Below, one piece after another: positions 5,661-31,150 of a stretch of DNA of 64,000 nucleotides. Under the pieces are notes generated by a model. It was not told where the DNA came from, did no database searches, and saw only the letters and a program-made list of their open reading frames with translations. Positions within the stretch are counted from its first letter, which is position 1. The number at the start of each line of letters is the position of its first letter. This stretch comes from Lewinella sp. LCG006. GTDB taxonomy: Bacteria > Bacteroidota > Bacteroidia > Chitinophagales > Saprospiraceae. The stretch is taken from assembly GCF_040784935.1 (NCBI RefSeq), contig NZ_CP160680.1, forward strand, positions 5,437,802 through 5,501,801, in the 5' to 3' direction. The position numbers and the translations under genes are program-made.

Positions 5661-6120
5661 CAGTCCTCACTCAAATGGATGGCGACTCCCAGAAGAAGAT
5701 GAAACGGAATGAGAGAATCAAGGCCCAACTGTCGCAGTCCTCACTCAAATGGATGGCGACTCCCAGTAAAGGAGCATACTATTTCGGCTTTGCCATTACT
5801 GTCGCAGTCCTCACTCAAATGGATGGCGACTCCCAGTGCGATCAGTAACGACGTAACGTATTATTTCCGTGTCGCAGTCCTCACTCAAATGGATGGCGAC
5901 TCCCAGCGTAAGGAGTCCAAAGGTCGGTCCTTTCAGGATAAGGTCGCAGTCCTCACTCAAATGGATGGCGACTCCCAGGAAGATTTAAGGATGCACGCCT
6001 TTTCGGCTATTATGTCGCAGTCCTCACTCAAATGGATGGCGACTCCCAGTACTAAATGTGCTGCCTTAGAGATGCAATTCATGTGTCGCAGTCCTCACTC
6101 AAATGGATGGCGACTCCCAG
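5661..6120 (-). CRISPR. CRISPR array 2 (7 repeats, 6 spacers; family 2)
   Basis: Repeats begin GTCGCAGTCCTCACTCAAAT and end GGATGGCGACTCCCAG. Starts are 5661 (truncated), 5731, 5801, 5871, 5943, 6014 and 6085. Stem and minus-strand handle (ACTGCGAC) are the same as in family 1; the loop (CAAA for ATAA) and the distal end (TCCCAG for TTGAAG) differ. The array lies directly downstream of cas2 on the same strand, so read-through from cas1-cas2 is possible. Confidence 0.97.
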
Positions 6121-6178
6121 AGCATACGTGTGTAATATGTATTTTGTTGCAATTCAGGCAATTAAAAAATCGGGATCG
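6121..6178 (-). promoter_or_regulatory. Leader of array 2 (family 2), overlapping the cas2 3' end
   Basis: The sequence GCATACGTGTGTAATATG and the AT-rich bases after it recur nearly unchanged after array 4 (31151-31198). In array 2 it overlaps the last codons of cas2 (stop at 6154). No clear minus-7 box is seen here. Confidence 0.7.
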
Positions 6179-9326: not shown

Positions 9327-9755
9327 TTACCCGTTGAAGTATTTAATGAAACTCAGCATTTCCTGGAGCCGGGCATAAACCGAGAATGGGGAATTACAGA
9401 AGTAAGCCTTGTCTTCGTAGTCATTAAGCAATTGATTACGGCCTGTTCCAAACCAGAGCAAATAGGCGGGGTGGTTTTCTAAGTAATCCTTTAAAATATC
9501 ATCGTTCTCAAAGCTCTTGGCATCGAAGAAGATGATTTCGAAGTGATCGGTTGCTCCCGTGGTGTTTCCATTCCATTTCGCATTTGGAAAGTAGTCACTC
9601 GGAAAAAGCTGCTTTTTGATGTAATCTACTCTTTGCTCAGAGCAAACTAGTAGAATGTGTTCGAAATGCTTGTCGAGTACGTAAGTCTCTGCGGCTATTT
9701 CTTCTTCAGAAAGTTTGTTGATAAAGCTTGAACAGATTTCAGCAATTCCTGATAT
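9327..9755 (-). pseudogene. Alpha/beta domain open frame without start codon (frameshifted end of the EAD gene)
   Basis: About 142 open codons after a TGA at 9758-9756, ending TAA at 9329-9327. It has no ATG until 15 codons before its end, so it is not a free-standing gene with a normal start. The product reads HFEHILLVC, FEIIFFDAKSFE, HPAYLLWFGTGRN and FSVYARLQEMLSFIKYF, which matches in order the C-terminal domain of the protein at 10727-11503 (RLLLLTP, FDVLIFNDFED, DKAILYYGTG, ARFLSQVYGNLMNLLKY). It is therefore a real coding domain, one frame (-1) away from the upstream EAD frame (9695-9955). A frameshift mutation, a sequencing error or ribosomal frameshifting are all possible. I saw no canonical slippery heptamer in the 9695-9758 overlap. 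Confidence 0.6.
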
Positions 9756-9955
9756 TCAATGTTTAGCTCTTTGCGAGAGACGGTCCCTTCTATTTCTGCA
9801 TCGACATGCCTCTTCATTCTAGCCTGTAACAAGTCCAAGGTGTCTCGTTCGTTCGTTGCAGAGGACTTAAGGTAGGTCGGCAGCAATTGCAGCGCCTTTC
9901 CAGGAGAAGAGACATTCGCCTTTTTCAGGGATTCAATGATTTCGTTAAAAGTCAT
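9695..9955 (-). CDS. Effector-associated-domain (EAD11-like) protein or N-terminal half of a split effector
   Basis: An 86-residue, all-helical product. Residues about 36-78 (TLDLLQARMKRH to EYQELLKSVQAL, with TVSRKE between) resemble effector-associated domains of the EAD11 type, short helical modules thought to pair like with like between sensors and effectors. The same stretch aligns without gaps to the C-terminus of the mCpol partner at 23410-24318 (LIALRRRVIDIE, LITRKE, LLDNLQEEI). The start overlaps the end of cas6b by 11 nt. The frame stops at 9695, while the alpha/beta domain continues one frame away to 9327. If restored, the protein would be EAD plus alpha/beta effector, about 208 residues. 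Confidence 0.6.
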   Translation of the reverse strand: MTFNEIIESLKKANVSSPGKALQLLPTYLKSSATNERDTLDLLQARMKRHVDAEIEGTVSRKELNIEYQELLKSVQALSTNFLKKK

Positions 9956-10726: not shown

Positions 10727-11503
10727 TTAGGTAATGGAGCGATGCTGTCGGGCACTGCGTTGGTATTTCAGAAGGTTCATAAGGTTACCATAGACCTGGG
10801 ACAGGAAGCGGGCCGAAGATATACTCGGATTAGTCGTGTCTTTGAGAATTCCTGTTCCGTAATAAAGGATCGCCTTATCTGGATAGTCTTGTACAATGTT
10901 TTCAATGATGGTAGTATCTTCAAAGTCGTTGAAAATTAAAACGTCAAAATCATCTAAGCTGCTAGGCAATTTTTTTTGCTCGACAGTTTTCAATTTTATT
11001 TTTTCGAATCCACTGTTTCGGAGTAGTTTGTGTAGTTTTTTATCCGTTTTTCCGCTTGGGGTTAATAGTAACAGTCGGCTATTCTCTACAATTTGCTCTT
11101 CTATGGGGGTGAAGTATTTTTTCATCTCAATTTCCGCTGCTTTTATCGCGCTGTTGTAGGCAAAACGATAAAGGGAATAGCCAAAACCAATCAAAGCAAA
11201 AAATGTGATAGGTATACCCAATGCTAACGGAGCTCCATAGTCTCTTTTGAGGTTAACTTCTACCTGTTGGATTTTTAGATGCAAACCTTTAATTTCTTGG
11301 TGTAGTGCTTTAATAGCTAGCAATTGCTCTTTATCATATATACTGGTATCAACAATACTACTTTGAAGTGAACTGATACGCTGAGTCAATAAGTGAACCT
11401 CCGCAGTTTCTTTCTCAAGTGCTAGATTGAGCGAATGAGTATGAAAAAAAAACAGAATAGCGGCAAAGAGTAATAATATTACTGGGAAGAAGTATTTACT
11501 CAT
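10727..11503 (-). CDS. Two-TM coiled-coil protein with C-terminal alpha/beta domain, candidate type III effector
   Basis: A 258-residue protein: TM segment about 4-22, coiled coil about 30-88 (heptad-like QRISSLQSSI, LHQEIKGLHLKIQQVEV), TM segment about 93-113, then an alternating beta/alpha domain about 137-245 (SRLLLLTP, FDVLIFNDFED, DKAILYYGTG, ARFLSQVYGNL). The last domain is the same family as that encoded at 9327-9755. Its start overlaps the stop of the ATPase gene by 4 nt (ATGA), implying translational coupling. The layout resembles membrane effectors fused to nucleotide sensors, but I cannot name the domain family. Predicted topology is both termini in the cytoplasm, coiled coil outside. 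Function is unknown; its place in the csm operon suggests an ancillary role. Confidence 0.6.
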   Translation of the reverse strand: MSKYFFPVILLLFAAILFFFHTHSLNLALEKETAEVHLLTQRISSLQSSIVDTSIYDKEQLLAIKALHQEIKGLHLKIQQVEVNLKRDYGAPLALGIPITFFALIGFGYSLYRFAYNSAIKAAEIEMKKYFTPIEEQIVENSRLLLLTPSGKTDKKLHKLLRNSGFEKIKLKTVEQKKLPSSLDDFDVLIFNDFEDTTIIENIVQDYPDKAILYYGTGILKDTTNPSISSARFLSQVYGNLMNLLKYQRSARQHRSIT

Positions 11504-14500: not shown

Positions 14501-14565
14501 ATTTGCTTAAACGAGCGAAAGTTTTCAAAGCCAAGTTCGGTTAAATGCAGGTTAGAGCGTTTCAT
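11500..14565 (-). CDS. OLD-like AAA/ABC-type ATPase with coiled coil and TOPRIM-like C-terminus
   Basis: A 1021-residue protein. Walker A GPNSAGKSS (34-42) follows a RecF/SMC-type start (FENFRSFKQITLPLKPLTIL). The long coiled coil spans about 255-415. The signature/Walker B region reads GFGITQLMPILLQTAL, INVEEPGTNLHP and FILETHSEYFIR. A DUF3696-like FPEGFYDE follows. The C-terminus has TOPRIM-like motifs: LTEDEKW near 812 and HLDSDGVG near 873. OLD-family ATPase-nucleases act in phage defence (Gabija GajA, retron and PARIS partners), but this one lies 6 nt after csm5 and overlaps the two-TM gene, inside a type III operon. It could process nucleic acid or drive the membrane protein; neither is shown. 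It is much longer than usual DUF3696 ATPases. Confidence 0.75.
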   Translation of the reverse strand: MKRSNLHLTELGFENFRSFKQITLPLKPLTILIGPNSAGKSSVMKSLLLLRDNYEKNGLSHLEFDEGAKHQLGSFISVANDPDAEIVFNQCFSFIKEKKKASKGTPEERMEVEKENGDSFHQIENTTERGNDFWNSIKRWKVEYRFKGEAGEPENQVKRVTLAGVEITPLSESENNEVNREPLLTYRADSGMVEVTFGSQWIIDLLGDNTALLKLRKDRLKSWVANKIQDRDVNNAVELILSSEEQFSHLEDEDQEEFSDDKFQEDNSSIELESKKEKEEIERLKQEIEKITEEISELETLLSAKVELEEKKSQIETRISDVKRNIKDEEKKVNSLQGILSEEKQSNNLQKEYGLAQDRLSKLQKESNFLLKEKEKFEPSKYQELPKQKNDLENQLKIAVDNLKALESSETRLFQNPKQEQQQQQDRNMEEHDEYKKIKESYGLSSVQDRVTYLSDLIVRWIDSAFAKELKRLLVSNNNESDKIEINNGKIIFNSSLNISELLLLSDKWRLKEYLRGEANESFIDKTLQSLISEEVDSIDKKDLEKVFRDSDSKIADVLISPYLDNIIFDHLTEWLNPLILTLVGSLKLTHFSASRGIQERIYNHSKNRTDLEISLMDWHRFVQANENYKAEKEYQFLMQQFQKDAFDIGIDFNVKIIDGSSLKAIVTTKDGKQRHLADLGFGITQLMPILLQTALHIKTGGLINVEEPGTNLHPSLQSKLAPFFLQAIDQGVQFILETHSEYFIRALQAEGGKIDKVGILYLKEGRLEKEISIIEKGELNTPFPEGFYDERERLVFKKELLPDLAGKRILVLTEDEKWNDSKCLECLLESNMFRMSEVLIKSFKGKTKAHFAAGMAKIILEEITHIKKVIIHLDSDGVGKQFVIEDTFKDNKEYFRDVEVFVTEYNDIEGYFLRESHISNLGLSESGMEELRDKINQEEQRTRDNKISALTQKYSSEEAARNQYNSSPEKFRFSKKILGVVKSHLKSKNINIIQRTDGLKCNFLSGLANEVWRETQNIKQ

Positions 14566-14571
14566 AAGAAG

Positions 14572-15738
14572 CTATACTTTACTCAATTTTACAAATCCCA
14601 AAGGTTCTCCTCCCAGCGCAAGCTTCCGGGTTTTAGGAGTAGGTATGCCATCGGGGTAAGCACGTTTCTGGACAGCCTCCCGTAACTTATACCAAGTTTT
14701 ATCGTCTACCAAATCCGGGTTTTTAGCCCAGCCGCCAGTCATAAACTGCCAACCAGATGCTGCACCTACTCGTAGGACGCAGCTCTGTTCTGTTTGAGCT
14801 TGTAGGATGGCTCGCTTGATTTCCTGAAGATGATCCATATAGTCGCCAATAACGATAGGGTTGCCTTCTTCTGCCCAAAACTTCAGTTCTTCTTCGATAA
14901 GTCCTAACGTATGATCATTGATTAACCCCGACAATAAGTTCCAATCTGTGTATTTGGCATTTGATTTGATTTTTTCTGCTTTGTACTTAGCGTCTCGTTG
15001 ATTCTTTACGTAATCGATCAAATCAGTAGGAACCTGTAGCCTACCTTCACTGGTTTGTCCTGAGGGAATACATTCCAAGTAGGTAGTTTCTCTTTTTTTG
15101 ACTCCCCACCCGTCTCGGTAATCATTGATAATTTCCAACGTGCGGCATTCGGTAACAGCGGGAAAATAGAAATCTGACAGTCGAAAAAGACGCATAAAAT
15201 CTTTATTTGCGTCCAAATCGTACCCTCCACGAAAACGATTCTCCTGATCTTTTTGGCCGAAGATCGCGGCGTTGATACGACGATCTGAAAAGTAAGTACG
15301 CCCCCTTCTGTTTTCTTGCAACTGGCGTCCGCCCTCCGTCAGAGATGGTCGCTGCTTAAGCAAATAATTGAATAAGACGGTACGAACGCTGCCCTTAAGG
15401 GAAGAGCCCGGAATAGTAGGTCTGGTCGGATTAGCCAAGTGCAGTTGTTCTTTCAATTCGCCACTTCTTGGTTGATGTCCATTAATTTTAACCAATCGAC
15501 TGGATACCTCTTCAGCGGACATACCCTTAAGTAAATGAGCTGTTAAGGGTTCTCCTTTTTCAATCGTACTTACCCATTGCCCCAGCCGGTCTTCACCAAT
15601 TAAGTCAAAAATTTTGCGTTCGTCAATTACGGCGAGTTCTTCATCAAAGGGGATGTAATCAATTTGGGCAGCCAACTTATTTCCTGTACCTACATGTACT
15701 GGGCTTAACGTTTGTAAAATCAGATTTAGCTTACTCAT
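14572..15738 (-). CDS. csm5: Csm5, type III-A effector subunit
   Basis: A 388-residue RAMP protein: N-terminal strand LNLILQTLSPVHVGTGN, then the Gly-rich IPGSSLKGSVRTVLF near 113-127, and the C-terminal GEPLGFVKLSKV typical of Csm5. Csm5 caps the 3' end of the crRNA in the Csm complex and is needed for crRNA maturation in characterised systems. It lies 9 nt after csm4 and 6 nt before the ATPase, within one operon. Length is in the usual range (about 350-420). Confidence 0.92.
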   Translation of the reverse strand: MSKLNLILQTLSPVHVGTGNKLAAQIDYIPFDEELAVIDERKIFDLIGEDRLGQWVSTIEKGEPLTAHLLKGMSAEEVSSRLVKINGHQPRSGELKEQLHLANPTRPTIPGSSLKGSVRTVLFNYLLKQRPSLTEGGRQLQENRRGRTYFSDRRINAAIFGQKDQENRFRGGYDLDANKDFMRLFRLSDFYFPAVTECRTLEIINDYRDGWGVKKRETTYLECIPSGQTSEGRLQVPTDLIDYVKNQRDAKYKAEKIKSNAKYTDWNLLSGLINDHTLGLIEEELKFWAEEGNPIVIGDYMDHLQEIKRAILQAQTEQSCVLRVGAASGWQFMTGGWAKNPDLVDDKTWYKLREAVQKRAYPDGIPTPKTRKLALGGEPLGFVKLSKV

Positions 15739-15747
15739 GGGCTTGAC

Positions 15748-16932
15748 TTAGAGAGGTAGGAAAAGTGCTTGGCCATCACGCCAAACAGGATGATCAACGA
15801 TAGGAATACCCGCCTTGGTCAAGGCGTCAGAATCGGGGCGTAAATCGCCAAGTCTTCCCTCCAAAGAGTGTTGGTTGGAAAATACACTGCCTTCCGTAAC
15901 CATATAAACAGAGCGTTTACGAATACTCAAATGGTTATCATTTGCAGGCTGGGCCATATAGCCCCCTCTACGCTGTAGCTGGTAAGCGGCTCCTTCTTCC
16001 GCAAGAGCTAGCGCTTCATTTTGACGAGGCCAGTACAGTGACAAATTCATTTGCCGGGTAGCAGAAGGTGGAAGTTCTAAGGGATAATTGTCTATAATCT
16101 TAGGAGAGAAACTCCCGCCTCCTGTACTGCGATCCGTCCCCAATCCTTCTTCTCCAAGCAGCTCCCAGGCTGCTTTCACTTGTGCGACCAAAGTCTCGTC
16201 TCTAATATCCATGAGGACGTATAAACCAGCACCCTCGCTGAAGTGCAATTGATCTACCCCGAAAGGCAAAGCATCCTCACCTTCTGGCTGTACCATCACT
16301 TGCTGCTTCATGGCCGTTTTAGTCATTTCCTCTGAAACTATGGTGCCCTTCAATAGATATTTACCTGCCAGCAAATATTTATTACTATATTTTTTTTCAA
16401 TTTGGGCCATGATCCGTTCGCACTCCTCTATCATTTCTTTGCTCTGGTTCTGACGTTTAAGTTCTTTGATGCACTCCTGGTACTTTGTTTTATCCTCTTC
16501 TTTAACCTGTTCAACCGTAATCTTTTCTCGCAATAAATCTCGTAATGTAGAATGTTCTATGAACTCGATATTATGCCTTTCTTTCTCAGCTTTGCTCCCA
16601 AAATCTTCGGACATTATTAGTTGTTCCGCCAGATTTAATGCTGGACGTGGAAAAAAATAATCGATCCCGTGTCGGTGCTCGTAATAAGGAAAAGCGGAAG
16701 ACAATCGAAAACCGTCAAAAAAGGCAGCCCCCTCATTTCCCTTTTCCACATTTTTCATGCCAACAGTATCCTTGCCGTACAACTTAAGAGCTGATACAAA
16801 AAGGGCGGACTTGAGAGTATCCGAATGGAGTCGTAGCTGTGAACGATCGTAGTTCCCTTCTTTTCCACTCGATAAGTGAAAGCCATTCTCGAAGCGAAGC
16901 CTAACTAAGGTATATGAGATTGATGGCTTCAT
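15748..16932 (-). CDS. csm4: Csm4, type III-A effector subunit
   Basis: A 394-residue RAMP protein. It opens LVRLRFENGFHLSSGKEG, carries LHSDTLKSALFVSALKLYG, AFPYYEHRHGIDYFFPRP and the Gly-rich GLGTDRSTGGGSF, and ends HPVWRDGQALFLPL. Csm4 binds the 5' handle (here predicted ACTGCGAC) and docks Cas10. The protein is longer than average (about 300-330), owing to a charged helical insert about residues 125-185 (EEDKTKYQECIKELKRQ). The ATG overlaps the csm3 stop by 4 nt. Confidence 0.92.
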   Translation of the reverse strand: MKPSISYTLVRLRFENGFHLSSGKEGNYDRSQLRLHSDTLKSALFVSALKLYGKDTVGMKNVEKGNEGAAFFDGFRLSSAFPYYEHRHGIDYFFPRPALNLAEQLIMSEDFGSKAEKERHNIEFIEHSTLRDLLREKITVEQVKEEDKTKYQECIKELKRQNQSKEMIEECERIMAQIEKKYSNKYLLAGKYLLKGTIVSEEMTKTAMKQQVMVQPEGEDALPFGVDQLHFSEGAGLYVLMDIRDETLVAQVKAAWELLGEEGLGTDRSTGGGSFSPKIIDNYPLELPPSATRQMNLSLYWPRQNEALALAEEGAAYQLQRRGGYMAQPANDNHLSIRKRSVYMVTEGSVFSNQHSLEGRLGDLRPDSDALTKAGIPIVDHPVWRDGQALFLPL

Positions 16933-17723
16933 AAGCTGGGAGGTATTAATCCGTTCAAGCGGTTTCCAAAGTTAGTTAGATCAATTTTTTCAGCATTATC
17001 ATTACCTTGGTAGAAGGCAGTAGTACGCTCCTCAATGTTGGTAACGGCAAATTTTACGTGTCCGCTACCGCGTGAACCAGCCCCGCCCAAATAGTCGTCC
17101 TGGACTAACCGGAGTGCTTGAAAAACGGTATCCAATAAAATATTTTCCTGATCAACTTCTTCTTCAAAAACATTTAGAACCATTGACCCTTTGAAGGTAG
17201 TACCCGCCGCGATGCGTTCCATCTGGCGTGGCATGGCTGCTGAGGTGATACGGTCGATTACTGTCTCCGTTTTTATCTCAACCAAATCTCTTTCCTGGTC
17301 TACTGTATCCGATAAAACCATATCCCGAACAATCAAGCGCGAAGGTTGCTGAGTTTTGTGTTTGAAATTATCCAAATCTTTAATGGGTTTACCTGCGTTA
17401 TCATATTCTTGATGTTGCGTGTAACCAAAAAGCTGAGCGGATAATGTACTTGCATCCTGGGTCGGTCCGGTTTGGATATCGCGGCTCATCCGTCTTCCTA
17501 AAGTACCATTACTTAGTTCTATCAACGAACGCATTTTTCCTTTCAGCGAACTTCCTGGAATATATGGTAAACGGGTAATAGGATGTCGTATGATACTGTT
17601 ATCGATTCCTCCGATATTCATATCACTATTCGTTCCTCCGATGTGCAAACCGGTAAGTATTTTGACCTCTATTTCGATTACGACTTTCTTATTAAGTCGA
17701 AGGGTATCAATGTTTTTACTCAT
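16929..17723 (-). CDS. csm3: Csm3, backbone subunit and target-RNA nuclease
   Basis: A 264-residue protein beginning VVIEIEVKILTGLHIGG, followed by NIGGIDNSIIRHPITRLPYI and PGSSLKGKMRSLIEL. Asp41 in GGID corresponds to the catalytic Asp (Asp33 of the Streptococcus thermophilus protein), so target-RNA cleavage should be intact. LGGAGSRGSGHVKF near 215-230 is the Gly-rich loop. Several copies line the crRNA in the complex and cut RNA at 6-nt intervals. It is separated from csm2 by 50 nt and coupled to csm4. Confidence 0.95.
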   Translation of the reverse strand: MSKNIDTLRLNKKVVIEIEVKILTGLHIGGTNSDMNIGGIDNSIIRHPITRLPYIPGSSLKGKMRSLIELSNGTLGRRMSRDIQTGPTQDASTLSAQLFGYTQHQEYDNAGKPIKDLDNFKHKTQQPSRLIVRDMVLSDTVDQERDLVEIKTETVIDRITSAAMPRQMERIAAGTTFKGSMVLNVFEEEVDQENILLDTVFQALRLVQDDYLGGAGSRGSGHVKFAVTNIEERTTAFYQGNDNAEKIDLTNFGNRLNGLIPPSL

Positions 17724-17773
17724 TTTTTCTTTTTTGTCAATTCAAGAAATCTTGCTTATGCAAAATAAATTTA

Positions 17774-18241
17774 TCAATCGCGGCCGCCATGAACTTTATG
17801 GTAAGCGAGAATGGATTCAAAAAAATCGACAAAATTGAAAAAAATTCTATCCACCTCGCTCTCTTTGATTTGATCTTCTTTCATTTTATCGGTTACAGCA
17901 ATGTGAGCTCTTTCCAGCACTTCCTGTAATGACTTAGTACCGTGCGTACCTGCGCGCTTTGCGGCATAGGCCATTTTAGGTCTGAGCATCAAAAAGTCTT
18001 TCTTATTCCCTACTAAACTTCCTTCGGGCAGACTTACTCGACTGGCAATTCTTTTCACTTCACTAAAAATTATTCGAATTTGACTTGTAGTCAACCTATT
18101 ATCTACTAATTCTTTAGCAAATTTATCCGTGAAAGCGATTGTCTCGTCTTCGAAATCCGTTTGTATCCATCCATCGATTCTTTTCAATGCATCGGGAGTT
18201 GCTACAGTAGCAGATTCACGTTTTTTATTGTTATAAGGCAT
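17774..18241 (-). CDS. csm2: Csm2, small subunit of the type III-A complex
   Basis: A 155-residue helical protein: LTTSQIRIIFSEVKRIA (about 59-75), LRPKMAYAAKR (about 84-94) and the C-terminal FFNFVDFFESILAYHK are the usual Csm2 elements. It forms the belly filament against Csm3. It overlaps the end of cas10 by 11 nt. Its presence, with Csm5, marks the system as III-A rather than III-B. Confidence 0.92.
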   Translation of the reverse strand: MPYNNKKRESATVATPDALKRIDGWIQTDFEDETIAFTDKFAKELVDNRLTTSQIRIIFSEVKRIASRVSLPEGSLVGNKKDFLMLRPKMAYAAKRAGTHGTKSLQEVLERAHIAVTDKMKEDQIKESEVDRIFFNFVDFFESILAYHKVHGGRD

Positions 18242-20771
18242 CGTTTCGGTTATTATGTTCTTGATTTAAAATAGCACTTTCCGTACGCCGATCTAGTTCG
18301 GCCAATCTTGCTGTGAGCGCAAGTAGGGATAGAGGGGTGTGGTGTAATGAAGACGTCAATCTCCGATCCCAAATATTTCCTACCAGTACAAATTGCTTAA
18401 TCAGCTCAAGGAAGGTTTTTTCCGCATATTGCGACCTCTTCGATAAACGACTTTGTAGTTGCCCAAGTGCATAGGATGCCTGCCAGTGCCAGGCAAATTT
18501 GTTATGGCTGATTATACCACTTTCAAGTTCGCGCAATGTGTACAAATTACGCAGTATGCTTATTGGTATTCCATCAGGATTATGCTTTCCGCGTAATTGA
18601 GTTTTGAGCTTAAGAAATAATTGCTCTAACAAGGCGAATTCATCCGTCCAGGTATCATCAGTACAGGTGTCATCCTGCTTTTGCACTTCGCTCCAGCGAA
18701 GAGTATTTCCTAAAACAGTGAAGGCGTTTTTTTCATGATCCTTTTTTTCTATTGATCCTTTTGATGTTTTGCTGGAAGTCGTTATTGTGTAATCCTTACT
18801 CTGTTTTTCTGCTTTACCCGCTATATCTGCGGCCTTCATCACGGGATACTTATGCGTGACTACTACCATTCCTCCGGATATGCTGATAGCCGGATTAAAC
18901 CCGGTCCATCTAGCAAAATCGCGATTAATTGATCTGGCAAAGTGATAGATTTTATCCCAGCGACCGATTACAAACAAATCATCCCCACCGGCGTAGATAA
19001 TCTGTGTTGTGTCATAACGATAGTCCTGCACCCACAACTTGTTGAGATAGCCCTTGAAGAAATAATCCATGTTTCTACTTAGGGTAGCGTGATTGGCAAG
19101 GCAAGTTTGACTAACTGGTACTCCCTCCCTAAATAAACGTCCGAGGTTGTCGACATCCATGCGTAGTACACCTAGCCGTTTAAAATCCAACTCCGACTTT
19201 ACGTAATCTTCACCCCCGTATTCCAAACGGTCCTTTTCCACGTTACCCGCCATCTCTGAAAAGGTCTTAGGTACGACTAAGTAAGCTGAATTTGGATGCA
19301 AGGGTAGAAGTGTCGTAGGGCCTTCGTTTCCACCGTAGAGATGAAACTGAAATTTCCATTTTGGTGGAATTTTCCACTCAGGAAGCGAGAACTCATTGAT
19401 TTGCAAAATCGTTAATGGGATGCTTCTGAGTTGCTCGAAATGCTCGTCTAAATCAGCAGATGTTAATAAATAATTATAGATTTCTAGCTTACCAACCCTA
19501 GTATGAACGGGCATCCAACGAGGAATATATATCCTACCAAGTTCATCTACCTGTTTCGTAGTCTTGATCCAATAGTTAAACCCTTTCAAGCGTTGTCCGA
19601 GTATTACTTGAGTAGCAGAATTATAAGAAATCAAGTTTTTCCCGCTTGCAATTTCCTCTTTAGATGCTCCCCGAATATCTTCGATATTATTGGGGTCGAA
19701 ATAGCACGCTCTTTCTTTTCTCACATCATCTGTGAGTTCTTGAACAGGAATTTCTTCACCGGTTATTACATCACGAGGACTTATACCTCCTTTTTCTACC
19801 TCTTCAGGATCAAACAAAGTCGAATATTCCTCTACCTGCTTTTTGAAGGGCTGCTGCTTTTTCTTCCTTTGCTGACTTCCAATTTCACTAAACATCTCTC
19901 TCAAGGTGTCACCTCTTCCAAAGACTGTAGTGCCAAAAGCAAAAGTGATCGTAGTTTTATGCTGTTCGAATAATGCTTTACTGATCTCTTCTTCAAACTG
20001 TCTGATCTTTTCTCTTACTTCCTCAGTATTCGGCACAATAAGAAGAAAGTTTCCACCCGAATCATACACAATGTTTCCCTGATATAAATCTAATCTATCA
20101 AGTAAGTCCTCAATAATATTATTGACCAGTATATAAAGATAAAAGGACCGCCCCTTTAAATTACGAGAAGCGTTTTTACTAACAATATCGTACAAAAATT
20201 TCTGGATACCAGAAACATCACCACCCAGCATGAGCACCTTGTTGTTGACTTTATCACCACCCTTAGCGAGCGCTATAACAACTCCTGCTCGCAGACGGGC
20301 AAGATCATAGTAGCAAACAGTATCACGTTCTATGTAATCACAGGGAATTGTTGCCGTATACTTATGGAGCAGTTGAAGTACCATCTCACCTCCATATTTA
20401 TCTGCCATTTCAGCGAACGGAGCAGCTGCTTTGATGAACTCGGCCCATAGCTCATCAAATGGTTGTGCCTCCACATCTTTGATCGGAAAAAAATCGTCAT
20501 TTAATAGCATTTCTGCCGGTTGAAACCAATAGTTAGCCTTCGGCGGGTCATACTTAGGAAGTCGCAATAAAGAAAAAATAGATCGTAGTGCAGTAACTTT
20601 TTCACTTCGCTCTAATTCAGTTCCTAACACCATCCTGTTAGCCAAACGACAAAGCTCAGGCCAATCAGCTGGTATTTCTTGCGAACCCAACAATTCCTGC
20701 TTTACCATAGCTGGTGCATCATACAACAATGCAAATAAATACAAGCGATCCAACGATAGTGAATCAGACAT
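18231..20771 (-). CDS. cas10: Cas10/Csm1 with intact cyclase site and degenerate HD domain
   Basis: An 846-residue protein. The palm GGDD lies near residue 594 (YAGGDDLFVIGRWD) with the partner Asp pair in LGVLRMDVDNLGRLF, so cyclic oligoadenylate synthesis is expected. The N-terminus reads LYLFALLYDAPAMVKQ where an active Csm1 has an HD followed by IGK-type residues: His is Tyr, and no second HD histidine set is evident, so the DNase is probably lost. The Zn-binding cysteine cluster is also absent (only one Cys around ERACYFDP). LRMDVDNLG and the helical C-domain are normal. It is the first gene of the operon. The system thus appears tuned to RNA cleavage plus second-messenger signalling. 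Confidence 0.95.
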   Translation of the reverse strand: MSDSLSLDRLYLFALLYDAPAMVKQELLGSQEIPADWPELCRLANRMVLGTELERSEKVTALRSIFSLLRLPKYDPPKANYWFQPAEMLLNDDFFPIKDVEAQPFDELWAEFIKAAAPFAEMADKYGGEMVLQLLHKYTATIPCDYIERDTVCYYDLARLRAGVVIALAKGGDKVNNKVLMLGGDVSGIQKFLYDIVSKNASRNLKGRSFYLYILVNNIIEDLLDRLDLYQGNIVYDSGGNFLLIVPNTEEVREKIRQFEEEISKALFEQHKTTITFAFGTTVFGRGDTLREMFSEIGSQQRKKKQQPFKKQVEEYSTLFDPEEVEKGGISPRDVITGEEIPVQELTDDVRKERACYFDPNNIEDIRGASKEEIASGKNLISYNSATQVILGQRLKGFNYWIKTTKQVDELGRIYIPRWMPVHTRVGKLEIYNYLLTSADLDEHFEQLRSIPLTILQINEFSLPEWKIPPKWKFQFHLYGGNEGPTTLLPLHPNSAYLVVPKTFSEMAGNVEKDRLEYGGEDYVKSELDFKRLGVLRMDVDNLGRLFREGVPVSQTCLANHATLSRNMDYFFKGYLNKLWVQDYRYDTTQIIYAGGDDLFVIGRWDKIYHFARSINRDFARWTGFNPAISISGGMVVVTHKYPVMKAADIAGKAEKQSKDYTITTSSKTSKGSIEKKDHEKNAFTVLGNTLRWSEVQKQDDTCTDDTWTDEFALLEQLFLKLKTQLRGKHNPDGIPISILRNLYTLRELESGIISHNKFAWHWQASYALGQLQSRLSKRSQYAEKTFLELIKQFVLVGNIWDRRLTSSLHHTPLSLLALTARLAELDRRTESAILNQEHNNRNDAL

Positions 20772-21713: not shown

Positions 21714-22889
21714 TTATTTTAATAATAGTGACACCCATACCTCAGGGCCTTCAACTAAAAGTGTGCGGTCAATGATCTTTACATTTAACAGATCGGCTTC
21801 ACGAGCGAAGTGATTCTGTATTGTACCACCTTTGTGTTTACGAAGTTTTCCTGTTAATGTGATAAGTACAGTTTGAACATGAAAACCATAATCGCGTTTT
21901 AATGCCGCTAAACGGAACAAGGCATTATTAAAATTGACTTTAATTTGTTGCCCTTGTGCTTTTCCTAGCCCTATTTTAGCTTCTATCACGTATAGCTTAT
22001 TCCTGTAACAAAAGAGTAAATCAAATTCGTGATTTCTGCCAGCCAGACGCTCACCATCATTTGCAGGGTATAATTTCCAACCATGTACACATTCCAGACT
22101 GGACAATTTCAATTGCCCTATTATCATACGCATTAGATAGTGTTCAAGCCATAAAGATTGTAAATATTGTACTTCCGAAGCGTTTAGTAGTTGCTTTGTT
22201 TGTGGCGTAAAGTGCAAATGTTTCAACCAATTTTCTAGCCAGACTAAATGGTCATAAGATACGCCGAGTTCACCATTGATCATTCTCATTTCTTTCGTTA
22301 ACTCGTACCCAAGGGCTAATGTCGATTTTTTTATACTGGTAATCGGCTGCTTGCCATCTAAAACATCTTGTAATAGTTGTTTTTCGGTAGCTGGATTAGA
22401 CTGATAACCATAGGATGGCTTCTCGTAGGCTATGCCATATGCCTCTAGGTAAGTTTTTACCGAAAAGCTATAATTTAGGGCATAATCTCCAATATATTCA
22501 GAGGGATGAACTACACGATAAGTATTTACACCGGAAAGCACGTATAGGATTTTTGCTTTAATTGTTTTTTGAATAAAAAAAGACCACGCACCGGCACCAA
22601 TCATTTTTGTACTACCAGTTAAACTGACTATATACCTGTTGTCTTGGTTGTGAGAACTTGATAGTATTGATGCAACCCGAATGGGATCGTCAGGTGGAAC
22701 AATAAAAACTGACAAGCAATCCCTCTTTATTTTGGTTGCTTTTAATAAATGTTCAGTTCTTCCTTGCTTCTCCATTTTTTCTGTCGATATAAACCAGTAT
22801 TTATCAACATGTGAAAAATCCGGTTCCAACAAAACCAAAGCATTAGGTGCAGCTTGTTCTCCTACCAGAATCACTAATATTTCTGTCAT
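21714..22889 (-). CDS. Card1/Can2-like CARF nuclease (DUF1887 type)
   Basis: About 391 residues from the ATG at 22889, chosen over an upstream in-frame ATG (22925) because the CARF fold starts EILVILVGEQAAPNALVLL. The ligand loop YIVSLTGSTKMIGAGAWSFF is the CARF motif. The C-terminal PD-(D/E)XK site is HEFDLLFCYRNKLYVIEAKIG-like, with Asp, then E-x-K, near residues 290-305. Characterised relatives are activated by cyclic tetra-adenylate and degrade DNA and/or RNA. It is the clearest receiver for messenger made by the Cas10 encoded next door, and it replaces the more common Csm6. It ends 65 bp from the sigma-like gene stop (convergent). Confidence 0.9.
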   Translation of the reverse strand: MTEILVILVGEQAAPNALVLLEPDFSHVDKYWFISTEKMEKQGRTEHLLKATKIKRDCLSVFIVPPDDPIRVASILSSSHNQDNRYIVSLTGSTKMIGAGAWSFFIQKTIKAKILYVLSGVNTYRVVHPSEYIGDYALNYSFSVKTYLEAYGIAYEKPSYGYQSNPATEKQLLQDVLDGKQPITSIKKSTLALGYELTKEMRMINGELGVSYDHLVWLENWLKHLHFTPQTKQLLNASEVQYLQSLWLEHYLMRMIIGQLKLSSLECVHGWKLYPANDGERLAGRNHEFDLLFCYRNKLYVIEAKIGLGKAQGQQIKVNFNNALFRLAALKRDYGFHVQTVLITLTGKLRKHKGGTIQNHFAREADLLNVKIIDRTLLVEGPEVWVSLLLK

Positions 22890-23034
22890 GATGCTAATTG
22901 AATTTTTTAAACAGGTTATCTGCAATAGTATCAGATAAAATCCTTACATAGTTTCACTTTGGATGATTGAAAATTTTATCCCATTCTACGAGAAGTTGTA
23001 TAACTTTGTTCTTTATAATTTATTAAGCACTGCT

Positions 23035-23400
23035 ATGGGCGATTATTATATTGGGCTAGACGGAGACAGCATAGGCCGAATAATTGAATCTTTTCTAATT
23101 TCAGGAGAGGAAGCAAAGGTTGTTAAATTTAGCCAATCAATCTCCATGGTATTAGAAGAAATAAAAACTAGAGTTATTGAGCTTAATGGCAGAGTTCTGT
23201 TTTGCTCAGGGGATAGTATTTTATTTTATGGTAAATTCGACATGCCTTTTTGTAGTTCTCTCTTGAAAAGTTTCAAGAGTAGAACAAATTGTAGTGCATC
23301 CATTGGAATAGGGAAAACACTTCCTGATGTTTACCTAGGACTTAAGCTAGCTAAATCGAGAGGAGGAAATCAGGCCGTAGTTTATCCCATTGAATTATAG
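23035..23400 (+). CDS. Minimal CRISPR-polymerase-like (mCpol) cyclase
   Basis: A small palm-domain protein, about 121 residues from the ATG at 23035. An upstream in-frame ATG at 22963 would add 24 residues not expected for the fold. The first metal motif is YYIGLDGDSIGRIIE, then a helix LISGEEAKVVKFSQSISMVL and the hairpin GRVLFCSGDSILFYG, the counterpart of (G)GDD in Cas10 and mCpol. SIGIGKTLPDVYLGLKLAK follows as in Cas10 palms. The second motif is SGDS, keeping the first Asp but losing the last. mCpols were predicted to make nucleotide signals and operate in Panoptes-type defence. Here it is followed after 9 nt by a CARF-like/EAD partner. Activity is not certain given SGDS. Confidence 0.7.
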   Translation: MGDYYIGLDGDSIGRIIESFLISGEEAKVVKFSQSISMVLEEIKTRVIELNGRVLFCSGDSILFYGKFDMPFCSSLLKSFKSRTNCSASIGIGKTLPDVYLGLKLAKSRGGNQAVVYPIEL

Positions 23401-23409
23401 TCGCGTCCA

Positions 23410-24318
23410 ATGAAAAAGAATATTTTCATTTTTACAGCTCATGGGTTGTCACCTGATTTATATATTAATATTATTACCCACTTGTTTGTGCAATATGGGA
23501 AGTCATTAGTAGAGTGTATTACTCTTCTAAAGATTGCCTATGAAGGAGATTCAAAAAAAGAACTCCGAGACGAACTTATTATCATTCGGGAGAATATATC
23601 CATACAAATCCAAAATCTCATCAATAGTAAAGTACGAAAATGGGATAGAAAAATAAATGACTGGGAAAAATCATCAGAAGGTTTCGATTATATCAAATTA
23701 AATAGACAATTTTTACATTCCTATCTGGAAGTAAGTGCTTGGTTGGATGAAAACGAAATAGTAACAAAAGTAGAAAGTTCAGCAACATTAGATCAGTATT
23801 TAGAAAATCAAGCGAGTAACCGAAATTATGACAATATTTTTGATCTAACAGGAGCACCTAAAAAAGATTTTGTCACCATTTCTTTAGCACTCCTTTATCA
23901 AAAAAGTTACCTACATATTTTTGAAGTCTTAAGAGATTTTGGCTCATTTAAGCACCAGTTGATTCATGAGTATATAGATAATGATCAAAATAATCTCTAT
24001 AAGTACCATGATCTTAATTTACCCAATTACAAGGTTAGTAAAAATTACACTGACTTGATGAGTCAAAAAGAAAAATGGAAAGAAATGATTGCCAATGGTA
24101 TTAGTATAGTTGAAATAATCGATACAATTAAGAAAGACCTTTCCGAGTTGCCAAATGCTGAGATTTTTCAAGAAAAATCAAAAGAATTAATTGCACTTAG
24201 GAGACGAGTAATCGATATTGAACAAAATAGAAGCAAGGAATTGATAACACGTAAAGAAGCTAAGACCGAGACTAACAATCTTCTGGATAATCTACAAGAA
24301 GAGATAAGACAGATATAA
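23410..24318 (+). CDS. CARF-like sensor with C-terminal EAD-like domain, mCpol partner
   Basis: A 302-residue protein, 9 nt after the mCpol-like gene. It begins NIFIFTAHGLSPDLYINIIT (first beta strand and helix). YDNIFDLTGAPKKDFVTISL near 155-174 matches the CARF/Rossmannoid TG(G)-x-K ligand loop, as does FVTISLALLYQKSYLHIFEV after it. The last 70 residues are helical and resemble an EAD11-type domain (ELIALRRRVIDIE, LITRKEA, TNNLLDNLQEEI), aligning without gaps to the EAD frame at 9695-9955. No nuclease, protease or membrane effector is seen in this protein, so it should act through a partner, plausibly that EAD protein. Assignments are by eye. Confidence 0.6.
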   Translation: MKKNIFIFTAHGLSPDLYINIITHLFVQYGKSLVECITLLKIAYEGDSKKELRDELIIIRENISIQIQNLINSKVRKWDRKINDWEKSSEGFDYIKLNRQFLHSYLEVSAWLDENEIVTKVESSATLDQYLENQASNRNYDNIFDLTGAPKKDFVTISLALLYQKSYLHIFEVLRDFGSFKHQLIHEYIDNDQNNLYKYHDLNLPNYKVSKNYTDLMSQKEKWKEMIANGISIVEIIDTIKKDLSELPNAEIFQEKSKELIALRRRVIDIEQNRSKELITRKEAKTETNNLLDNLQEEIRQI

Positions 24319-24353: not shown

Positions 24354-25070
24354 CTACTTCTGTCGTACACCCCGCAGCGGCCGCACCACTCCCAAACCTA
24401 ACTGTGCACCACGCCCCAGACCAAGAAACTCGGGAATGAAAAGATTGGTACGGAATTGCAGGTCAAAGCTGGCTTGGAAAATACCTCCCAATCTGCTTTT
24501 CTTTTCTTTGCCGACACGGAGCTGATCGAGGGTTAAAGGCTCTCTGGCTGGCCAGTTCATGCGGTCGGCCAATTCGCTGAGGTGAAACAATAGATGGCTT
24601 TGCAAGAGCGCGTTTTTATCAGCGAGAGAGCGCGCTTGTTGATAGGAGGTGTAAGCTTGGGATCGGAACGGGGTATACCCGAAAAGCAAGTAGGTGTATT
24701 TCTTTTTGCCGTAATCGGCCTGGAAGCGATGTTCGCGCTGGCGAAGGAGCAGGTTTTTTAAGGCCAGTGAGGTGATCGGGGAGAAAGCTGCCTGACCCAG
24801 GCAAACCTCCATCAGCATGAGGACCTGGCGACCCGCATAAGTGCCGATTTTAAACTCCTGCCAGTCGTTTGCGAAAAAGGAAGACCCCGCGGCGGTAGGC
24901 GTCCCCCGACCGGGCGCGTTGAGGGCCTTCTCTAGTGTTTGGATGCCCGCCGCAAGGGTGGCTTGCGTGCAGGGAATGTTCCAGTGTGTTTGACGTACGA
25001 ATAATGGGGACACGTTTATTCTTTTGATCTGCTGCAAAACTAAGGGGGATAAGGGCCTGTTTTTTGCCAA
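24354..25070 (-). CDS. cas6: Third Cas6-like protein
   Basis: A 238-residue protein whose C-terminus SFDLQFRTNLFIPEFLGLGR and GAQLGLGVVRPL parallels AFDLEFRTQLFLPSGIGIGK of the cas6b genes, including the Gly-rich loop, although the loop His is Gln/Leu-like here (GAQLGLG for GVSHGFG). The N-terminal half lacks the WRGA..HNH..YRYPLIQYR block. It may be an inactive or differently acting Cas6, or a Cas6 of another class for which only the RNA-binding half is similar. It is monocistronic and convergent with the mCpol operon, with AAGAG-AAAA-CTCTT (about 24340-24353) between them. Confidence 0.6.
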   Translation of the reverse strand: MAKNRPLSPLVLQQIKRINVSPLFVRQTHWNIPCTQATLAAGIQTLEKALNAPGRGTPTAAGSSFFANDWQEFKIGTYAGRQVLMLMEVCLGQAAFSPITSLALKNLLLRQREHRFQADYGKKKYTYLLFGYTPFRSQAYTSYQQARSLADKNALLQSHLLFHLSELADRMNWPAREPLTLDQLRVGKEKKSRLGGIFQASFDLQFRTNLFIPEFLGLGRGAQLGLGVVRPLRGVRQK

Positions 25071-27139: not shown

Positions 27140-28341
27140 GTTTAAGCTCTCCCGATACGATCCTTGATCTATCGGAGCTAGACCTGCGTTGAACGGAGTA
27201 ACGCAGCGTGGGGTATTTAAGACCCCTTCCTGCTCTATAGTCTCGCTGGTAGGCAGGCATCCCAGCCTTCCCTGTGAGGGCAGGAGTTTTTTGAGTTGGA
27301 GGAGAGGGGTGTGTTGGCCTTGTTTTAGGCTCCATCCTCCGGCTCCTTCCTCGCGAGGAAGGAGTGACGCTGGTGAGGTGTGAATGCTCCGTGGGTAGAC
27401 TAGACTAGCGGGGTAATTTATAACGAATACTACGGGCCACGGCCCGCCCATGTCCTCCGCCCGGTCGGAGGTGGCCCAGAGGGTCGGAGGTGGGCTATAG
27501 GCTAGGCCTAAGGTTGCCCACCAGGGGCCGAGGTGGGCAACCTCGTCTATCAGGGTCAATTCCAAGCATCAGGTGGCCTATCCCGCTGTCGAGGGTGGTC
27601 ATAGGCCGATTTGATATGTGCTTCTAACACAAACACAGGCCTTCAGGAGAGCATCCTCCAAATCCAAGCTCCTCCTTAGCTTTGGTCGGGATACGTTTCA
27701 ACTTCTCCTTAGCCTAAGGTTCCTTTAGCTGGTTAAGCGCTAGACGTGCCACTTCCCGAACGTGCGGGATACGTTTTATCTTCCTTTCCAATCTTGATTT
27801 CTCTTGCTGGTTAGGTCGCTAGACGTGCCCTGTCCCGACCAAACCTCTAAATGAGCTTTGGTCGGGGCACGTTTCAACTTCTTTTTTGGTCTTGGTTATT
27901 CTTTCTGGTTAGGTCGCTAGACGTGCCCCGCAGGTCTAGTCCCGATAGAGCTGATAAGGTGGTATCTGGATCGTCCCGATCAAATCACTTGTTGAGCTTT
28001 GATACGGGATTAAAACCTGCGGGACACATTTTAACTTCTCTTTATTCTTCTGAGATTACATTAGCTGGTTAGGTCGCTAGACGTGCCCCGCACGGCTAGT
28101 CCCGATAGATTTGTAAGAATCGTATCGGGATCGCAGTCCCTGTCCGACTGGCGTCTGGCCAGACGGGCTCACTATAATGGATGGCGATCCCGATCAAACC
28201 TCCTCCGGAGCTTCGATGCGGGATTAAAACGTGCGGGGCACGTTTTAACTTCCTTTCCAATCTTGATTTCTCTTGCTGGTTAGGTCGCTAGACGTACCCC
28301 GTACGGCTAGTCCCGATAGATTTGTAAGAATCGTATCGGGA
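27140..28341. repeat. Palindromic repeat mosaic, copy III (abuts array 3), with a lone CRISPR repeat
   Basis: Longest copy. It holds CTGCGTT..AACGCAG, the perfect 22-bp palindrome made of CTCCTTCCTCG and its complement (about 27343-27364), the GGGCCACGGCCC block, then several hairpin units with GCTAGACGT near 27744, 27817, 27917, 28077 and 28287. At 28131-28187 a single CRISPR repeat carrying the 29-nt insert stands between two units (TATCGGGA before, TCCCGATC after). The last unit ends TATCGGGA fused to CAGTCC of array 3. Confidence 0.8.
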
Positions 28342-28886
28342 CAGTCCTCACTATAATGGATGGCGACTTGAAGCACATTAAAAATGAAAAGGGCACATGG
28401 GATAGCGTCGCAGTCTTCACTGTAATGGATGGCGACTTGAAGCATCAAAAAGAACGTCGATCGCCTTAACCCTGTCGCAGTCCTCACTGTAATGGATGGC
28501 GACTTGAAGTATTCGACGCCATGTTCATCAAGGACGGCATCCGTCGCAGTCCTCACTATAATGGATGGCGACTTGAATTATGAAGAAGCGGTGCAAGCGC
28601 AAAATGATTCGTCGCAGTCCTCACTATAATGGATGGCGACTTGAAGACTAAAGAAAATGAAAAAGCCACAGGTCAAGAAAGGTCGCAGTCCTCACTATAA
28701 TGGATGGCGACTTGAAGTGGCCCGGGATGACGTAAACGTAAAGTTTTTATTTGTCGCAGTCCCTGTCCGACTGGCGTCTGGCCAGGCGGGCTCACTATAA
28801 TGGATGGCGACTTGAAGCATTCTGCCACAAACGGGAGACTAACGTTCTTGCCAGGCGGGCTCACTATAATGGATGGCGACTTGAAG
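28342..28886 (-). CRISPR. CRISPR array 3 (8 repeats, 7 spacers; family 1, decaying at both ends)
   Basis: Repeats of family 1 start at 28342 (truncated), 28407, 28474, 28543, 28611, 28682, 28753 and 28850. The repeat at 28753-28817 contains a 29-nt insert after GTCGCAGTCC. The last, leader-proximal repeat (28850-28886) keeps only the final 11 nt of that insert plus TCACTATAAT..TTGAAG, so it lacks the handle-coding part. The repeat at 28543 ends TTGAAT. Leader on the right, transcription predicted leftwards. The damage next to the leader suggests the array can no longer take up spacers normally. Confidence 0.95.
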
Positions 28887-29235
28887 GCCCATTTTTACAA
28901 AACGTATGCTAAAGATAAGCTATTCAGAGAAAAACAAATAAAAGAATAGTTTAATGACATACTCGAAAATGATTTTTCGTTAGATTTTAACATTTGTTAA
29001 TGGAAGCAATATAGTCTTTTTTGAGCAAAAACAAAAATGATGTTTTTCTGCAATTCGCTGATTTTTAGTTATTTGTGTTTTTAGTACAAACAAAATGTAT
29101 TTCGCTTCCTGTAAGAAATTACGAAAATCTGCTTAGGTCAAAAAATGATTATGTATTTCATTGGGGTAGAATAGATTGTGCTGTTTTTCAAAACGCTCTA
29201 TTTAACATAATGATAATACAAAAAATTGGATGGTA
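28887..29235 (-). promoter_or_regulatory. Leader of array 3 (family 1)
   Basis: Homologous to 3511-3860 over its length, with shared blocks ATGATTTTTCGTTAGATTTT, AAATCTGCTTAGGT and ATGATTATGTATT. It confirms common origin and polarity of arrays 1 and 3. Confidence 0.85.
28910..28938 (-). promoter_or_regulatory. Predicted promoter of array 3
   Basis: On the minus strand TTTG, 17 nt, TATCTTTA, exactly as in the array 1 leader and about 24 nt before the first repeat. The match between two diverged leaders supports function. Confidence 0.55.
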
Positions 29236-30432: not shown

Positions 30433-31150
30433 TCGCAGTCCCTGTCCGACTGGCGTCCGGCCAGGCGGGCTCACTCAAATGGATGGCGACTCCTAGCCAA
30501 CAAAATTAAGCCTCATCGCAAGTTCATAATGAAGTCGCAGTCCTCACTCAAATGGATGGCGACTCCCAGGCAGTTCATAGGATCGCCGTCGATGTGTACG
30601 ACGATAGTCGCAGTCCTCACTCAAATGGATGGCGACTCCCAGGTTAAAACGACTATTAAATACTGATTATGTACTAATTATAAGTCGCAGTCCTCACTCA
30701 AATGGATGGCGACTCCTAGAAAAACAAGCATCGACCGAGGCTTAGTCCACATTGTGTCGCAGTCCTCACTCAAATGGATGGCGACTCCCAGCTGCTTTGT
30801 GTGGATGAATACTACTTCACCCCCTATTGGTCGCAGTCCTCACTCAAATGGATGGCGACTCCCAGATATCTACAACGTGACAAGTGAACCTGCAATTTAT
30901 GTCGCAGTCCTCACTCAAATGGATGGCGACTCCCAGAAGGAGCTAAGTGGAGAGGGGAGAATTTTAAGCCTCCGTCGCAGTCCTCACTCAAATGGATGGC
31001 GACTCCCAGAGAATCAACCCACTATTGGAAAAAAAGACACAAACGTCGCAGTCCTCACTCAAATGGATGGCGACTCCCAGCTCTAGCAACTAAAGGTGCT
31101 TTCAGGTAATCCATGTCGCAGTCCTCACTCAAATGGATGGCGACTCCCAG
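30433..31150 (-). CRISPR. CRISPR array 4 (10 repeats, 9 spacers; family 2)
   Basis: Family 2 repeats start at 30433 (with 29-nt insert), 30534, 30607, 30684, 30756, 30830, 30901, 30974, 31045 and 31115. Those at 30433 and 30684 end TCCTAG, the rest TCCCAG. The inserted repeat is at the old end here, opposite to array 3. Leader on the right is the same as that of array 2, but no cas genes adjoin, so cas1-cas2 must act in trans. Confidence 0.97.

Follow-up and report, generated by a model that had tools for sequence, protein, structure and literature searches.

A putative mCpol/CARF signalling unit with an EAD11 output domain in a CRISPR island of Lewinella sp. LCG006

The closest described relatives of the locus reported here are two-gene units built around a minimal CRISPR polymerase (mCpol). 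In Panoptes, the mCpol OptS constitutively makes 2',3'-c-di-AMP, which keeps its effector, the S-2TM-beta protein OptE, silent (PMC12657218, PMC12657230). The partners described for mCpol genes are membrane effectors that act on their own or HEPN RNases; 40% of mCpol genes lie with genes for CARF proteins that carry two transmembrane helices (CARF-2TM), and 53% of mCpol systems occur in genomes with a SMODS-centred system, an association that is usual and not required (PMC12657218). Statements on these two papers, and on PMC7159879, PMC8195603 and PMC10910872 below, refer to their accessible text. Here we describe an mCpol gene followed by a gene for a CARF protein that ends in an effector-associated domain (EAD), EAD11. 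The pair lies in a stretch of 64,000 nucleotides from Lewinella sp. LCG006 (positions 5437802-5501801 of the single-contig genome of 7,507,556 bases), hereafter the window.

With Panoptes, the window pair shares the active-site aspartates and the two-gene layout of a synthase and a nucleotide sensor, whereas its sensor is a CARF domain and not a beta-barrel, its output is EAD11 and not 2TM, and its genome has no SMODS match. With the mCpol/CARF-2TM pairs (PMC12657218; PADLOC CARF_m9--CARF_TM) it shares the mCpol, the CARF family and the gene order, but EAD11 stands in place of 2TM, and the effector would therefore have to come from another gene. We consider the pair, with a probability of roughly 0.57, to be a signalling unit of the Panoptes kind with an exchanged output module. 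The mCpol would make a cyclic (di)nucleotide, the CARF protein would bind this product, and EAD11, replacing the membrane-piercing 2TM, would enable the CARF protein to bring in or set free effectors that carry EAD11 and are encoded elsewhere, such as the CHAT and caspase peptidases and the TIR-like and SIR2-like proteins of its own genome. If it works as Panoptes does, this nucleotide would keep the sensor silent until phage anti-defence proteins deplete it, and its loss would set the sensor off.

EADs have been proposed to link core sensors to effectors through homotypic contact (PMC7159879), the cores of such conflict systems being VMAP, iSTAND, Ubl or GAP1 (PMC7159879, PMC8195603), unlike the CARF domain of the window. 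In the accessible text, CARF occurs once in PMC7159879, in a reference title, and neither in PMC8195603 nor in the Panoptes paper PMC12657230; that of the Panoptes paper PMC12657218 does not contain "effector-associated". The 2025 CRISPR classification (PMC12669027) contains "mCpol" zero times and "ead" only within reference numbers. The FLSHclust systems UAS-55/64/66 (PMC10910872) likewise unite CARF with an EAD-class domain and type III genes in a shared neighbourhood, but form a ternary vWA-MoxR-VMAP system with EAD7, without mCpol or NARF. CARF near EAD is thus already known, while the mCpol/CARF-EAD11 combination appears new: neither it nor the EAD11-NARF genes described below were found in the literature searched, the scope of which excluded subscription papers and bioRxiv. 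Within that literature, no paper contained "nucleotidyltransferase-associated Rossmann", and none combined "NARF domain" with CRISPR.

The mCpol gene and its CARF-EAD11 partner

Two open reading frames (ORFs) of the window, 22963-23400 and 23410-24318 on the + strand, are separated by 9 nt and carry the following features.

23035..23400, + strand: mCpol, in a frame that opens at 22963 (PF18182, NF033576 and OptS match)
23410..24024, + strand: CARF domain, residues 1-205 of the partner protein
24046..24318, + strand: EAD11 domain, residues 213-302 of the partner protein, four helices, output tail (PF19964 under its cut-off; hhalign; model)

The preliminary description, made from the sequence alone, had recognised a small palm protein as an mCpol, followed 9 nt on by a second protein with a CARF-like loop (DLTGAPKKD) and a C-terminal helical domain read as an EAD, and these assignments held. 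The first ORF matches the mCpol profiles of Pfam (PF18182, 92.3 bits, cut-off 26.4) and NCBIfam (NF033576, 70.9 bits, cut-off 40), as well as OptS chains in the PDB (9mnr, E 8e-9; 9nwn, E 5.2e-8). The catalytic aspartates are present, as D33 and D84 of the 145-aa ORF correspond in the alignment to Asp6 and Asp57, the putative active site of KpOptS (PMC12657218). Because relatives begin near M25, the true start is probably this codon at 23035, giving a product of 121 aa. The N-terminal part of the partner protein, which contains the DLTGAPKKD loop, was identified as CARF by both its fold and a CARF family profile; whole-model Foldseek TM-scores were low (0.31-0.32 for Csa3), with E at or below 0.001 in three rows.

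A search of 5.8 billion proteins returned six CARF-EAD11 proteins, the window's own together with P0002, P0003, P0005, P0006 and P0007. With the homologue of L. cohaerens (genome G155, same genus, DSM 23179), the set comprises seven proteins, all encoded by open frames. The L. cohaerens protein was kept in the set because it aligns with the other members over its full length; its tail alone would not qualify as EAD11. Three of the seven pass the Pfam EAD11 cut-off, three fall under it and one has no match, with PF19964 scores of 19.1 (P0002), 22.4 (P0003), 32.5 (P0005), 48.3 (P0006) and 35.3 bits (P0007). We also used a profile of our own, built from 42 EAD11 sequences with the CARF tails and the 86-aa product discussed below excluded. 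With this profile the window tail scored 16.7 bits against 11.5 for the best of 500 shuffles, P0002 15.5 (best shuffle 8.7), P0003 18.7 (10.8) and P0005-P0007 34-41 (12.0). Profile-profile comparison of the tail with EAD11 by hhalign gave a probability of 97.6 (P 4.6e-12, 79 columns), and the structure model shows four helices in the tail.

The two transmembrane helices of the CARF-2TM kind are absent from the window protein, as judged by hydropathy only. From residue 190 on, its Kyte-Doolittle maximum over 19 residues is 0.79; the seven EAD-type proteins range from 0.23 to 0.99, with no hydrophobic helix, against 2.41, 2.86, 2.63 and 2.66 in four 2TM-type CARF proteins.

Exchange of output modules among mCpol partners

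In a family survey of 199 genomes we found eight mCpol genes of at least 76 bits in seven genomes; 13 lower-scoring rows (22-43 bits; frames 548-687 aa long) were set aside as Cas10-like. The partner is CARF-EAD11 in the own genome, CARF with an EAD-like tail in L. cohaerens, and CARF-2TM in G137, G114 and for one of the two G192 genes, the other being paired with a Csm6-type HEPN protein. In G030 the partner is a Cap15-type S-2TM-beta protein, which makes this pair Panoptes proper (PF18153, 48.6 bits; PADLOC 2TM effector). The mCpol of G051 reads as a fusion, in which CARF-HEPN-like sequence precedes the mCpol end; type III genes adjoin it, with Cas10 on the same contig. The PADLOC profile CARF_m9--CARF_TM matches the CARF-2TM proteins of G137, G192 and G114 over nearly its whole length, and 2TM occupies the position of EAD11 in these three (PADLOC, hydropathy) and in L065 (hydropathy).

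The CARF-EAD11 profile matched in 5 of the 396 genomes of an order sample, at full length in the own genome, G155 and G303 and with the tail part only in G033 and G194. Genome G303 belongs to another family, in which it alone of 20 genomes had matches, and there mCpol precedes CARF-EAD11 as in the window; its mCpol reaches 101.4 bits against a profile built from six other mCpols, with 12.0 as the highest score among 500 shuffles. The two-gene layout is thus present in all three readable contexts (own genome, G155, G303) and in two families. Beyond this, the class sample contained CARF-EAD11 in the own genome alone (1 of 395), and the phylum sample had an mCpol match at E 1e-8 in 2 of 395 genomes, own counted. 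Relatives were found neither in viral contigs nor, with P0006 as the one query, in plasmids.

When eight mCpols were placed on a tree, those of EAD type fell into two groups, each of which also contains 2TM-type rows, and a single clade of EAD-type mCpols was rejected (approximately unbiased test, p 0.00015). This clade was tested after a first tree of ten rows, which had no starred branch, had been viewed, and two long rows were omitted later. In the CARF tree the EAD-type rows do cluster, though weakly (83/88), and there a split like that of the mCpols was not rejected (p 0.18). Since the EAD-type mCpols do not form one clade, the output type may have changed more than once, or partners may have been swapped, a tentative reading as the trees have long branches.

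Several neighbours of these pairs were recorded. In G192 (L053 4573-6566), a gene for a NARF protein is divergent from the mCpol-HEPN pair, linking NARF to a non-Cas10 palm enzyme. In G137 (L051 6564-8072, - strand), a CARF7-RelE-like gene lies head to head with the mCpol/CARF-2TM pair; in this genome, which is 91% complete, the Cas10 palm profile matches solely at the mCpol. In G155 (L050 17308-18000, - strand), a CHAT-like sequence was noticed by eye about 7 kb from the mCpol/CARF pair.

EAD11-NARF genes, the EAD11 pool and the CRISPR island

The window pair lies within a CRISPR island, since arrays or repeats flank it on both sides, further repeats being found at 28338-28887 and about 30534-31150; cas1 is also present. 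The main features of the island are as follows.

2575-3511 and 5657-6121, + strand: two CRISPR arrays
9327..9755, - strand: NARF half of an EAD11-NARF gene, in another frame, with no ATG, GTG or TTG before codon 99
9695..9955, - strand: EAD11 half of the same gene, 86 aa (PF19964, 24.5 bits, cut-off 26; own profile)
10727..11503, - strand: 2TM-NARF protein (PADLOC Mem_03) in the csm operon (PF20299, 35.9 bits, cut-off 25; PDLC01157, E 4.2e-6)
14572..20771, - strand: csm1-csm5, type III-A (TIGR02578, TIGR01870, TIGR02582, TIGR01903 and TIGR01899, all over cut-offs)
21714..22925, - strand: CARF4-PDDEXK (Card1/Can2-like) nuclease (PF23400, 60.8 bits; PDLC01880, E 5.1e-32)
22890..23034, no strand: region separating the probable divergent starts of the CARF nuclease and mCpol genes

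The nuclease gene, with its first ATG at 22889, is head to head with mCpol, and the stretch between them may be a shared promoter region. Three Cas6 homologues lie on the - strand (8638-9312, 9945-10715 and 24354-25070), the Pfam match of the third being confined to its C-terminal domain. Between csm5 and the 2TM-NARF gene, 11500-14565 (- strand) encodes a large ATPase like the NsnB/AriA-type defence proteins.

The product of 9695-9955 had been taken in the preliminary description as an 86-residue EAD protein and as the effector of the mCpol pair. It is not a complete protein, and a role as the dedicated effector is not supported. The product is EAD11-like, at 24.7 bits with our own profile against 7.9 for the best of 500 shuffles, and its gene overlaps the cas6 end by 11 nt. 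The frame 9327-9755, which overlaps the 3' end of this ORF, has no Pfam or PADLOC match, but matches, by phmmer, EAD11-NARF proteins from seven genomes (closest matches at E 7.5e-24 to 5.4e-7), the EAD11-NARF profile A8 (E 1.2e-27, positions 71-223) and the NARF part of the window's 2TM-NARF protein (BLASTP, E 7e-4). Because the two frames together match uninterrupted EAD11-NARF proteins elsewhere, we read them as halves of one EAD11-NARF gene, broken or frame-changed here; a mutation, a mistake in the assembly or a programmed change of frame could account for this.

EAD11-NARF is apparently a sensor-type ancillary of type III, its NARF part presumably sensing a nucleotide, as the Pfam name and the neighbourhood suggest. 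It shares with the known type III ancillary 2TM-NARF (PADLOC Mem_03) a NARF protein beside csm genes, whereas in the window and 11 other genomes EAD11 replaces 2TM. An AlphaFold model of 2TM-NARF (two rows) had a pLDDT of 52 and was not used. NARF matched at E 0.01 in 15 of the 199 family genomes, nine over the cut-off. After removal of G015 (three stops) from 18 rows, the heads of 17 were scored: nine were hydrophobic (19-residue Kyte-Doolittle maximum of at least 1.6, a threshold we set ourselves), six were EAD11 by our own profile, one had no head (G134) and one, in G092, was a chance match in a metallo-beta-lactamase-like protein. NARF proteins thus show a 2TM/EAD11 alternation parallel to that of the CARF proteins.

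Two further EAD11-NARF genes were found in G023 and G102, and a class sample (355 genomes) added three full-length matches, in G1056, G880 and G952. This brings the uninterrupted genes to 11, each in a different genome and the window's gene not counted. In seven of these proteins, Pfam EAD11 is over the cut-off in G030 (52.0), G023 (53.7), G100 (38.4) and G033 (38.1), under it in G126 (25.1) and G102 (21.1) and absent in G153. Pfam NARF passes in none of the seven (18.0-23.7 in five, no match in G023 and G102), and their NARF part was assigned by its match to the window's NARF half. Nine of the 11 genes lie inside cas loci: those of G030, G033, G126, G023, G880 and G952 have several csm matches, that of G102 has csm4-type (E 3e-6) and csm5-type (E 1.8e-4) matches, and those of G100 and G153 have cas6 with only a weak csm3-type match. 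The remaining two are in G158, on a contig of 3.8 kb, and G1056. The gene directly follows csm5 in five genomes (G030, G033, G126, G023, G880), and a 2TM-NARF-type gene shares the locus in G100, G023, G102, G153, G880 and the window. The G102 locus (L134 2447-8890) reads csm4, csm5, EAD11-STAND-pentapeptide, EAD11-NARF, EAD11-CHAT, amidohydrolase and 2TM-NARF, its EAD11-CHAT protein passing both cut-offs (CHAT 30.2, cut-off 24; EAD11 34.3, cut-off 26); this gene order gives the strongest hint of a chain of EAD11 coupling within a csm operon.

The own genome holds 16 EAD11 matches in 15 frames at E 10, 11 of these frames holding the 12 matches that pass the cut-off, and eight other genomes checked have 7-28 matches each. 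Control genomes also yield matches, 11 of 14 at E 10 (under the cut-off) and 2 of 14 at E 0.01. Since EAD11 is common in the genome, a second copy 13 kb from the pair is not striking by itself. Ten EAD11 proteins of the own genome were scanned for further domains, of which CHAT (48.8 bits), caspase C14 (65.4), iSTAND (56.6), FGE-sulfatase (184.4) and SIR2_2 (25.6, cut-off 24.5) were over their cut-offs and putAbiC was just under (21.4, cut-off 22). EAD11 itself is over the cut-off on the CHAT, caspase, iSTAND and FGE proteins; on the SIR2 protein it reaches 18.6 bits at genome level, under the cut-off. L023 and L025 appear by eye to contain TIR-like parts, with no Pfam match.

Weighing the possible modes of action

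Several observations count against a Panoptes-like unit with an EAD11 output. The window tail scores 15.3 bits with PF19964, under the cut-off of 26; in the L. cohaerens tail Pfam PF19964 detects no EAD11, and our own profile gives 9.8 bits, equal to its best of 500 shuffles. No EAD11 gene adjoins the mCpol pair in the own genome, G155 or G303. Co-occurrence of CARF-EAD11 with EAD11 proteins, akin to the genome survey suggested in the preliminary description, is useless as a test, as all eight other genomes checked have 7-28 EAD11 matches. Homotypic EAD binding is itself a published proposal, and the direction of signalling rests on analogy. We lean towards inhibition, but the Panoptes authors leave the direction open for other mCpol effectors (PMC12657218). 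This last point, together with the proposal that EADs bring effectors to a core sensor (PMC7159879), favours an alternative in which the mCpol product activates CARF-EAD11, as in CBASS or type III, infection switching mCpol on by an unknown trigger. The window mCpol, at 121 aa from M25, is equally minimal, which speaks against this alternative, and we regard activation as possible, though clearly the less probable sign.

The pair could also be an auxiliary of type III-A, CARF-EAD11 sensing cyclic oligoadenylate made by Cas10 and mCpol amplifying or modifying that signal. It sits between csm genes and CRISPR arrays, 37 nt from the CARF4-PDDEXK ORF and beside a Cas6 homologue, and in L. cohaerens, too, a cas6 gene adjoins it, head to head with mCpol and matching the window cas6 8638-9312 at E 1.4e-107. 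However, the Cas10 palm profile PF22335 finds nothing in L. cohaerens except the mCpol, so the tie to type III drawn in the preliminary description does not extend to this relative, and the mCpol/CARF unit seems not to need Cas10. SMODS (PF18144) had no match at E 0.001 in the own genome, G155 or G303, other CD-NTase kinds lying outside the search; with no other Cas10-palm match and no SMODS match, the mCpol is the only nucleotide source found in L. cohaerens. Cas10-type hits are present in the own genome and in G303, which has two, both away from the pair; the window Cas proteins were unmatched within the 18 kb of G303 read, and also near the CARF_m9-2TM pairs of G137, G192 and G114, yet the CARF7-RelE-like gene adjoins mCpol in G137. 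Overall, an auxiliary role is unlikely. Still less probable is a reading in which the EAD11 tail has no effector partner and serves plain dimerisation or folding, the pair being decayed or a regulatory remnant. Drift of the tails away from the EAD11 profile, in the window and in L. cohaerens, speaks for it; against it, all seven homologues have open frames, mCpol retains its active-site residues, and a second family, the NARF proteins, shows the EAD11/2TM alternation too. Least probable of all, and in our view very doubtful, is a dedicated signalling pair of CARF-EAD11 with the 9695-9955 product. Both are EAD11 by profile (16.7 and 24.7 bits) and lie in the same CRISPR island, with a pairwise score of z 3.0 (p 0.01 against shuffles). 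By contrast, an ungapped alignment of the two, of the kind given in the preliminary description, is not significant alone (best ungapped segment p 0.11, 1000 shuffles), and the 86-aa ORF is half of a split gene. Among 43 EAD11 sequences from nine genomes (loci returned by the searches, not every match), six are nearer to the tail by z (L072, L084, L009, L078, L003, L093) and nine others are nearer to the 86-aa piece, led by L093, L098 and L004. L. cohaerens lacks both a frame of about 86 aa among its 14 EAD11 matches and a NARF match. By the same measure the closest sequence to the tail overall is L072, from another genome, and within its own genome L009 (TIR-like by eye). For the 86-aa piece L093 and L098, both from other genomes, come first, and L004 (caspase) is the closest within its own genome. 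Neither segment is the other's closest match, and pairwise scores do not support a specific pairing. The broader claims of the preliminary description fared better: nucleotide-signalling defence of the Panoptes kind fits, except that no Panoptes S-2TM-beta (Cap15-like) effector stands beside this mCpol, and signal transfer by EAD pairing agrees with the published coupling proposal (PMC7159879), with the other EAD11 proteins of the genome as the likelier partners.

If the Panoptes-like reading with an EAD11 output is right, a sensor that keeps CARF and trades its effector for an adaptor could let one small nucleotide circuit command many killers, and such an alarm relay to separate killer proteins would resemble animal cell-death pathways. 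The NARF alternation and the EAD11-CHAT gene in a csm operon join cyclic-nucleotide immunity with EAD (death-domain-like) networks, two fields treated almost apart in the literature consulted. Because nucleotide input and peptidase output are both assayable, the system allows direct tests of homotypic EAD coupling. We also consider, as an unlikely extension, that two cyclic-nucleotide pathways of a single CRISPR island share EAD11 as an output bus. Cas10 would signal through 2TM-NARF and EAD11-NARF sensors and mCpol through CARF sensors (2TM or EAD11), the two EAD11 arms calling on one common set of EAD11 peptidases and NAD-type effectors. The mCpol would then act as a tripwire, in that a phage which silences Cas10 by degrading cyclic nucleotides would thereby set free the CARF-EAD11 arm and trigger those very executioners. 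Such an arrangement would place an adaptor network akin to that of death domains downstream of type III CRISPR, with the EAD11-CHAT gene in the G102 csm operon as its clearest trace. Away from recognised cas genes, the EAD11-NARF gene of G1056 (L148 9986-12761) has a gene for a 337-aa EAD11 protein close downstream.

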